Assembly: GCA_021296415.1 (NCBI GenBank)
Contig: JAGWAL010000002.1
Location: 7,816-51,456 of the forward strand
Direction: 5' to 3'
DNA length: 43,641 nt
Source of the DNA: Acidimicrobiia bacterium
GTDB taxonomy: Bacteria; Actinomycetota; Acidimicrobiia; Acidimicrobiales; CATQHL01
In this document: piece after piece, positions 32,185 to 34,964 of the stretch
Layout: each line of letters starts with the position of its first letter
Numbering within the stretch: position 1 is the stretch's first letter
The notes under the pieces: generated by a model
What the model saw: only the letters and a program-made list of their open reading frames with translations
What the model was told of the DNA's origin: nothing
Database searches by the model: none
Program-made: the position numbers and the translations under genes

Positions 32185-32985
32185 GTGCCTGAACTGCCCG
32201 AGGTGGAGACCATCCGTGGCCAGCTGGAGCCGCGGCTTGTGGGGCGCCGCATCACCGAGGCCGGAAGCCTCGCCTCGGAGAAGTTCCTCCCCGCTCGGGA
32301 TGCTGCCGGCCGGACGGTTGCGCGCCTGTCGCGCCGGGGCAAGTACCTCATCGTCGCACTAAGCGGCGGACAGGATCTGGTCGTGCATCTGGGCATGACG
32401 GGGCGCCTACAGTTCACCGCCGCCGCGCCGCCCAGTGACGGTTACGTGCGGGCGTGGTGGAGTCTCGACGACGGCGCCGTCCTGGAGTTGCACGACGTGC
32501 GTCGCTTCGGGAGAGTGCGGCTGGTCCCCGCAGGGTGCTACGACACCATCCCGACGCTGGCGCAGCTGGGTCCCGAGCCGCTGGGCGCCGAGTTCGACGC
32601 CGCCCGATTGTGGGCGGCGCTGCGGCAGAGCCGGCGACGGGTCAAGACCCAGTTGCTCAGCCAGCGCCCGGTTGCGGGGCTGGGCAACATCTACGCCGAC
32701 GAGGCTCTCTGGCGGGCCGGCATCAACCCGGCCAAGCGCCGGATCACCCGGGCCGAGGCCGCCGCCCTGCACGCGGCGATCCCCGAGGTGTTGCGGCAGG
32801 CCATCGCCCACCGCGGCACCACGTTCCGCGACTACCGCACCCTGCTGGGCCCGGGGGGCGACAACTACGCCCATCTGGACTGCTACGGCCGCGGCGGCGA
32901 ACCCTGCCGCCGCTGTGGTGCGGAACTGCGGAGTCGCGTCCTCGACGCCCGCAACACCACCTACTGCCCCAGTTGCCAACGCTGA
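32185..32985 (+). CDS. mutM: Formamidopyrimidine-DNA glycosylase
   Basis: This 266-residue enzyme removes 8-oxoguanine and formamidopyrimidines. The N-terminal PELPEVETI holds the catalytic Pro and Glu; Lys53 lies in RRGKYL, HLGMTGRL and RFGRV follow, the H2TH region includes VAGLGNIYADEALW, and the C-terminal zinc finger is CRRCG then CPSC. GTG 32185 must be the start because the proline after it becomes the nucleophile. It follows the RecB-like nuclease by 138 bases; both are DNA repair genes. Confidence 0.96.
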   Translation: MPELPEVETIRGQLEPRLVGRRITEAGSLASEKFLPARDAAGRTVARLSRRGKYLIVALSGGQDLVVHLGMTGRLQFTAAAPPSDGYVRAWWSLDDGAVLELHDVRRFGRVRLVPAGCYDTIPTLAQLGPEPLGAEFDAARLWAALRQSRRRVKTQLLSQRPVAGLGNIYADEALWRAGINPAKRRITRAEAAALHAAIPEVLRQAIAHRGTTFRDYRTLLGPGGDNYAHLDCYGRGGEPCRRCGAELRSRVLDARNTTYCPSCQR

Positions 32986-33144: not shown

Positions 33145-34209
33145 ATGACGTACCGCCTGACGCAGTACAGCCACGGCGCGGGTTGAGCCGGCAAGCTCGG
33201 TCCCGACGACCTGGCGCAGGTTCTGCGCTCCCTCACCCACGAGATCCACCCCGATCTGCTGATCGGCACCGGCGACGACGCCGCCGTTTGGCGCCGGCCG
33301 GACGGCCGCGCCCTCGTGGCGACGGTCGACTTCTTCCCGCCGGTCACCGACGACGCGCACACCTGGGGACGCATCGCCGCCGCCAATGCCGCCAGCGACG
33401 TCTACGCCATGGGCGGCCGACCCCTGTTCGCGTTGAACGTGGTGGTCTGGCCGCGTGAACGCCTTCCCCTCGATCTGCTCGCCGAGGTGCTGCGCGGCGG
33501 CGCCCGCACCGCAGCCGAGGGCGGCTGGAGTGTGGTCGGCGGTCACACGACCGACGGGCCCGAACCGGTCTACGGCCAGGTCGTCACCGGCGAGGTGGAT
33601 CCCGACCGGCTGCTGCGCTCCGGTGGCGCCGAGCCGGGCCAGCTCCTGGTGCTCACCAAGCCGCTGGGCACCGGCATCGTCACCACGGCGCACAAGCGAC
33701 TGGCACCGGGCGACTCCGGCCTGCCGGAGAGCGCTCTCGAGGCCGCGGTGGCCCAGATGTGCCGGCTGAACGACACGGCCGCGGGGCTGGCACTGGAGGC
33801 GGGAGTCACGGGCGCCACCGACGTCACGGGATTCGGCCTCCTCGGCCACCTGCGGGAGATGTGCGCGGCCAGCAACCTCGGGGCGCGCCTCGACGCCGCC
33901 ACCGTGCCATTGCTTCCGGAGGTCGAGACCCTCGCCGCCGCCGGTCACGTCCCCGGCGGGACGGGACGCAACATCGCCGCCGTGCAGGCGCACCTACGCT
34001 TCGAGCCCGCCGACGCCGACCGCGGCGCCGTGCTGCTGAACATCCTGGCCGACCCCCAGACCTCAGGCGGGTTGCTCCTGGCGTGCCCGCCGGGAGCGGT
34101 CGACGACCTCCTGGGCGACCTGGCGGCAGCAGGACACACGCCCGCCATCGTGGGAGAGACCAGCGGCTCGATCCCGACCGGGGCGATCGAGTTGATCGCG
34201 GGCATGTGA
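33145..34209 (+). CDS. selD: Selenide, water dikinase, selenocysteine-containing
   Basis: This 354-residue protein makes selenophosphate from selenide and ATP. ATG 33145 leads in frame through TGA at 33184-33186, read as selenocysteine 14 in the segment SHGAG-Sec-AGKLGP. This aligns with GAGCGCK of E. coli SelD, where the first Cys is catalytic and Lys20 essential; both Sec and Lys are kept, while the second Cys is Gly. After the TGA the frame holds the full family: LIGTGDDAAVW, AAANAASDVYAMGG, VVGGHTTDGPEPVYG, GVTGATDVTGFGLLGHL and ADPQTSGGLL. A candidate SECIS follows the TGA. The stop overlaps the next gene. Confidence 0.93.
33213..33229 (+). promoter_or_regulatory. Candidate bacterial SECIS element in selD
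   Basis: GCGCAG (33214-33219) pairs perfectly with CTGCGC (33223-33228) around the loop GTT, with a G-U pair closing the base. The loop begins 34 bases after the TGA and starts with G-U. This meets the known bacterial rules of a G in the first two loop positions and a spacing of about 16-37 bases for SelB recognition. Confidence 0.7.
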
Positions 34210-34964
34210 GACGCCCCGTCGGGAAGGACCGCCCGCCGCCACGCGTGACGCGGGTCCGGCGCGCTCGCACCGCCGCCGTGCGCCTCCTCCTCGTGGCGGC
34301 GGGCCTGGCAGCGGCGCTGTCGGTGGGTTCGCTCCTCGTGGCGCAGGACGACCTGGTCGCCCCGGGTGTCCGCATCGTGATCGTGGCGTTCGTCGTCGGT
34401 GCGATCCCCTTCTCGAACCTGCTGGCACAGTCGATGGCGGCCACCGACCTGCGCACCGTCGGCAGCGGCACCGTCTCCGGCACAGCCCTGTACCGCGTCG
34501 CCGGCTTCGCCCCGCTGGCCTTCGGGGGGATCATGGACATCGCCAAGGGAGCGCCGGGGGTCCTGGCAGCCGGCTCGGCTCCCGTCGTGAGCGCCCTCGC
34601 CGCCGGCGCCGCCGTGGCCGGGCACAACTGGTCACCCTTCCTCCGGGGAGCCGGGGGGCGCGGCGTCTCGCCCGCCATGGGTGCACTGGCCGTGGTGTTC
34701 TGGCCGGGCGCCGTACTCCTGCTGGCGGGCCTGGCGGTCGGCCGGGTGCTGCGCCAGACCGCGTTCGTATCGTTCCTGGCGATTCTGGCGGTTCCGTTCC
34801 TGGCGCTGTCCTGGGGCGGGCGCGACGCCACACTGGCGGGCTCACTCGTCGCCGCGGCGATGCTGCTCAAGCGGCTGACCGGCAACAACGCCCTGCCCCC
34901 GGCCGGGCGGCGGCCGCGAGTCCTCCTGCAACGCCTGCTCTGCGACAACGACGGTCCGCCATGA
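34206..34964 (+). CDS. Divergent PlsY-like glycerol-3-phosphate acyltransferase family membrane protein
   Basis: This 252-residue protein has several membrane helices and the PlsY layout: VGAIPFSNLLAQ, DLRTVGSGTVSGTALYRVAG (motif 1 region), MDIAKGAPGVLAA (motif 2 region) and GHNWSPFLRGAGGRGVSPAMG (motif 3 region). Motif 1 of PlsY is normally GSGNxGATNVxR and motif 3 GGKGVAT; here Thr replaces the Asn and GGRGVSP replaces GGKGVAT. It may be a true acyltransferase or a specialised paralogue. GTG 34206 overlaps the selD stop as GTGA; a later GTG at 34245 is possible. Confidence 0.75.
   Translation: MRRPVGKDRPPPRVTRVRRARTAAVRLLLVAAGLAAALSVGSLLVAQDDLVAPGVRIVIVAFVVGAIPFSNLLAQSMAATDLRTVGSGTVSGTALYRVAGFAPLAFGGIMDIAKGAPGVLAAGSAPVVSALAAGAAVAGHNWSPFLRGAGGRGVSPAMGALAVVFWPGAVLLLAGLAVGRVLRQTAFVSFLAILAVPFLALSWGGRDATLAGSLVAAAMLLKRLTGNNALPPAGRRPRVLLQRLLCDNDGPP

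Follow-up and report, generated by a model that had tools for sequence, protein, structure and literature searches.

A probable selenocysteine-containing selenophosphate synthetase and its SECIS hairpin in a member of the Acidimicrobiia

The selD gene and its internal TGA

The window analysed here is a stretch of 43,641 nucleotides from an Acidimicrobiia bacterium, whose genome is a draft assembly of 63 contigs and 1.69 Mb that is 78% complete. It includes a gene for the selenophosphate synthetase SelD, flanked by genes for a DNA glycosylase and an acyltransferase. The features of this locus are:

32185-32985: formamidopyrimidine-DNA glycosylase gene, neighbour of selD
33145-34209, forward strand: selD (selenide, water dikinase), 354 codons, with predicted selenocysteine (Sec) as residue 14 and a TGA stop at 34207-34209
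33184-33186, forward strand: putative Sec codon TGA in place of the catalytic Cys codon, context GAG-U-AGK
33190-33192, forward strand: GGC codon for Gly, in the place taken by the second Cys of U/C-x-C-K in most SelDs
33213-33229, forward strand: predicted bacterial SECIS apical stem-loop, 7 bp, loop GUU at 33220-33222 (read as G-GUU-C)
34206-34964: PlsY-like acyltransferase gene, neighbour of selD

The frame starts at ATG 33145, codes through 33145-34206 and is open apart from a single internal TGA (33184-33186). With this TGA read as a residue the N-terminus is MTYRLTQYSHGAG-U-AGK, the catalytic-loop context of the Sec is YSHGAG-U-AGK, and the product matches the TIGR00476 selD family with 360.2 bits (cut-off 125) over profile positions 1-308 of 311. 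The AIR synthase-like N and C domains (PF00586 and PF02769) both score above their cut-offs, and the C/U-x-x-K pattern, a catalytic Cys or Sec followed by a conserved Lys, is present as GAG-U-AGK. The family match and the open frame confirm the preliminary description, in which a TGA lies in frame at the site of the catalytic Cys in an otherwise intact SelD. A standard gene caller would probably begin selD at GTG 33316 (33316-34209, forward strand), and the catalytic loop would be lost.

Relatives of selD were drawn from a genome collection and from a search across the phylum. The closest five share 76-79% protein identity with the SelD of the window; the start Met at 33145 is kept in relatives L019-L023, and L019-L024 show no essential difference from the protein described here. 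More widely, the Sec-SelDs of Acidimicrobiia and other Actinomycetota (L019-L098) have a nearly identical loop and SECIS. TGA is found at the identical codon in 86 compared SelDs (about 80 related actinobacterial SelDs), and the aligned position is occupied by Cys in homologues from Pseudonocardia (L057, L079, L083, L084) and others. A SelD-type match is present in 216 of 296 sampled genomes of the phylum, and roughly two thirds of the SelD matches listed from this sample contain exactly one internal TGA; the Sec-SelD arrangement is common in related bacteria.

Only one other prokaryotic selenoprotein is more widespread than SelD. Sec-containing SelD, or SPS2, is common and was described long ago, being known in Methanococcales, Pasteurellales and many bacteria (PMC4561486, PMC13188914). 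These proteins resemble the one in the window in having Sec at the catalytic loop, encoded by an in-frame UGA, with the SECIS just downstream in bacteria; their loops read UGCK or UACK, whereas the loop here reads UAGK. The E. coli SelD belongs to the same equivalog family and would share its reaction, but has a catalytic Cys (Cys17), which binds selenide (PMC3956282), where the protein here has the predicted Sec. A search of the literature on selenoproteins of Acidimicrobiia found nothing.

The hairpin downstream of the UGA

The stem of the candidate SECIS consists of a G-U closing pair and six further pairs, with 26 nt from the UGA to the stem and 33 nt from the UGA to the loop. The preliminary description had a 6-bp hairpin with a GTT loop 34 bases on; the hairpin is present and its GUU loop starts at the 34th base, but the stem, of 7 bp, already starts 26 nt past the UGA. 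The E. coli fdhF SECIS has a small apical loop beginning GGU and a G+C-rich stem, and the selD hairpin is of the same loop and stem type, although the spacing from the UGA (33 nt to the loop) is longer here. With its 7 bp, GUU loop and 33 nt spacing the hairpin lies within the published limits for bacterial SECIS elements (PMC13188914), as had been proposed, and the claim is further borne out by its conservation in Sec-SelDs, described below.

The 17-nt hairpin has a folding energy of -9.6 kcal/mol, with a z-score of -4.1 against dinucleotide shuffles. The whole 57-nt stretch downstream of the UGA folds no better than shuffled sequence (z -0.7), and the comparative evidence therefore bears the main weight in identifying the SECIS. 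The comparison set comprised 86 Sec-type genes, giving 75 distinct sequences in this stretch, and 19 distinct Cys-type sequences. All five core pairs are intact in 70 of the 75 Sec-SelDs, against one of the 19 Cys-SelDs. Synonymous recoding, with codons drawn from each gene's own usage, gave an expectation of 4.8 +/- 2.2 sequences with intact core pairs, and never more than 12 over 200 draws. Non-independence of the relatives means that this null overstates the significance, and the size of the excess is no probability. The contrast between Sec- and Cys-SelDs, the latter taken from the same phylum, is the better evidence.

Changes on both sides of the stem are seen in these alignments. The sixth pair (33219/33223) is G-C in 30 sequences and C-G in 18, and a core pair changes from G-C to C-G in L045 and L052. 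Among the five Sec-SelD exceptions is an A+T-rich marine group, that of L069, with one internal mismatch. The comparison indicates that the SECIS is retained together with the Sec codon, and that Cys homologues almost always lack it.

Two Sec-SelDs, L102 and L103, lack the common SECIS pairing downstream (TTGGGGTACGTCATGGGT), and may have a shifted or different hairpin.

Selenocysteine machinery and readings of the UGA

Elsewhere in the same genome (G000) the following features were identified:

contig C45, locus L017, 2328-2414, reverse strand: tRNA-Sec(TCA), 87 nt, Rfam match, ARAGORN anticodon TCA
contig C45, locus L017, 11850-13223 and 13223-15007, forward strand: adjoining selA and selB, curated cut-offs exceeded
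contig C39, locus L129, 74126-75991, reverse strand: formate dehydrogenase alpha subunit (FdhA), its canonical Sec site occupied by a single in-frame TGA

The tRNA-Sec scores 55.8 bits (Rfam gathering score 47), and is drawn by ARAGORN with two acceptor-stem mismatches. The selA and selB matches score 371 bits (cut-off 268) and 294 bits (cut-off 242), and the pair lies about 9 kb from the tRNA-Sec on contig C45. It had been predicted from the window that the organism has SelA, SelB and tRNA-Sec, and all three are indeed found together on this contig; the lack of selB and tRNA-Sec, set beforehand as the outcome that would speak against the Sec reading, is excluded for this genome. The TGA of FdhA lies in the context CNRT-U-HAPSVVGL; downstream of it is a hairpin with a GGUCU loop, which begins 18 nt after the UGA. 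By its sequence FdhA is a second selenoprotein of the genome, and the idea of SelD as the sole selenoprotein was rejected, FdhA also having a Sec TGA. A profile search of the genome gave one SelD match only, and a second, Cys-type back-up SelD was not found.

Directly observed are the frame, the position of the TGA, the conservation of the SECIS and the genes for SelA, SelB, tRNA-Sec and FdhA; these observations bear on three other readings of the locus. A Cys-type selD might have acquired the TGA by sequencing error or nonsense mutation, and in favour of this the window comes from a draft assembly; the same TGA is, however, present in about 80 independent assemblies, and it is accompanied by a conserved SECIS and by the full Sec machinery in the genome. 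Because about 80 related actinobacterial SelDs have TGA at the same codon, the comparison indicates that the Sec codon is not an error, and this conservation in relatives rules out the error or nonsense reading, to which we give a negligible probability. It is also very improbable that the UGA is suppressed or read as Trp, Arg or Cys by a near-cognate tRNA, since tRNA-Sec(UCA), SelA and SelB are all encoded in the genome, homologues have Cys at the position of the UGA, and the SECIS goes with UGA as opposed to Cys codons.

Translation of SelD could instead begin at the downstream GTG 33316 and leave the upstream part untranslated. A 297-aa ORF from this position does exist, as a standard gene caller would give, but its product would be without the catalytic loop, and the protein from ATG 33145 is conserved in relatives and matches TIGR00476 from position 1. 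The conserved N-terminal protein sequence rules out the GTG start, which we consider to have virtually no chance of being correct.

The product of the gene is almost certainly both a standard selenophosphate synthetase and a selenoprotein, with Sec inserted at UGA 33184-33186 through SelB and the hairpin at 33213-33229. SelB with Sec-tRNA-Sec would bind this hairpin when the ribosome reaches the UGA, and Sec would be inserted as residue 14 of SelD. The Sec would take the role of Cys17 of E. coli SelD in handling selenide within the mobile N-terminal loop, and SelD would use ATP to form selenophosphate. The selenophosphate would then pass by way of SelA into Sec-tRNA-Sec, which would serve the synthesis of SelD and of at least one more selenoprotein, formate dehydrogenase. 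We infer the insertion by SelB at codon 14, the selenophosphate catalysis and this self-feeding from known biochemistry.

A catalytic loop without the second Cys

The loop of the SelD reads U-A-G-K and not U-x-C-K, and the same Gly is found in 27 other Sec-SelDs compared. The preliminary description was correct in stating that Gly replaces the second Cys and that the loop then has no redox residue other than the Sec. When the motif is masked in building the tree, the UxG loop requires four changes, at least two of which are forced by well-supported branches; the UxG sequences fall in the clade of the window, in a second Acidimicrobiia clade and in a pair near Actinopolymorpha. This distribution points to an origin of UxG in at least two lineages.

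Loops with a lone redox residue occur in 27 of 83 Sec-SelDs and 2 of 41 Cys-SelDs (Fisher p 5e-4), a tally whose motif pattern missed 27 loci and in which one or two clades dominate the Sec excess, so that the p-value is not to be taken at face value. The greater frequency of such loops with Sec is only a lead, because the rows are clustered and there are two Cys counter-examples. The view that the second Cys is lost only together with Sec was not upheld, the Cys-SelDs L158 and L168 also being without it.

The partner Cys is placed differently in several other SelDs. L109, L110, L111, L116 and L126 have C-G-A-K with the partner Cys three residues upstream (CAG-C), and in the Sec forms L086 and L096 it is likewise three residues upstream of the Sec (CAG-U) and not two downstream. 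The Cys-SelDs L158 and L168, which are from the same phylum, have the loop STKSGCAAK with a single redox residue and no Sec.

In E. coli SelD Cys17 is required and a change at Cys19 is tolerated, and the Gly in UAGK would therefore be unremarkable. A lone redox residue is also seen in two Cys-SelDs from this phylum, so the Gly at the second loop position constitutes no new mechanism. We regard it as possible but rather doubtful that the presence of Sec has freed SelD in this actinobacterial lineage from the need for a second loop Cys. The resulting 'lone-selenol' enzyme (UxG) would have arisen at least twice and would work without an intramolecular selenenyl-sulfide partner in the loop.

The selD of the window adds an example to a well-known family and raises no new mechanism. 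It is a selenoprotein gene that appears here to be correctly read, of a kind that ordinary gene callers would shorten, and it brings a clean, comparatively supported candidate SECIS for actinobacterial SelD. The apparent repeated loss of the second Cys is a small, testable point concerning which residues of the loop SelD needs.
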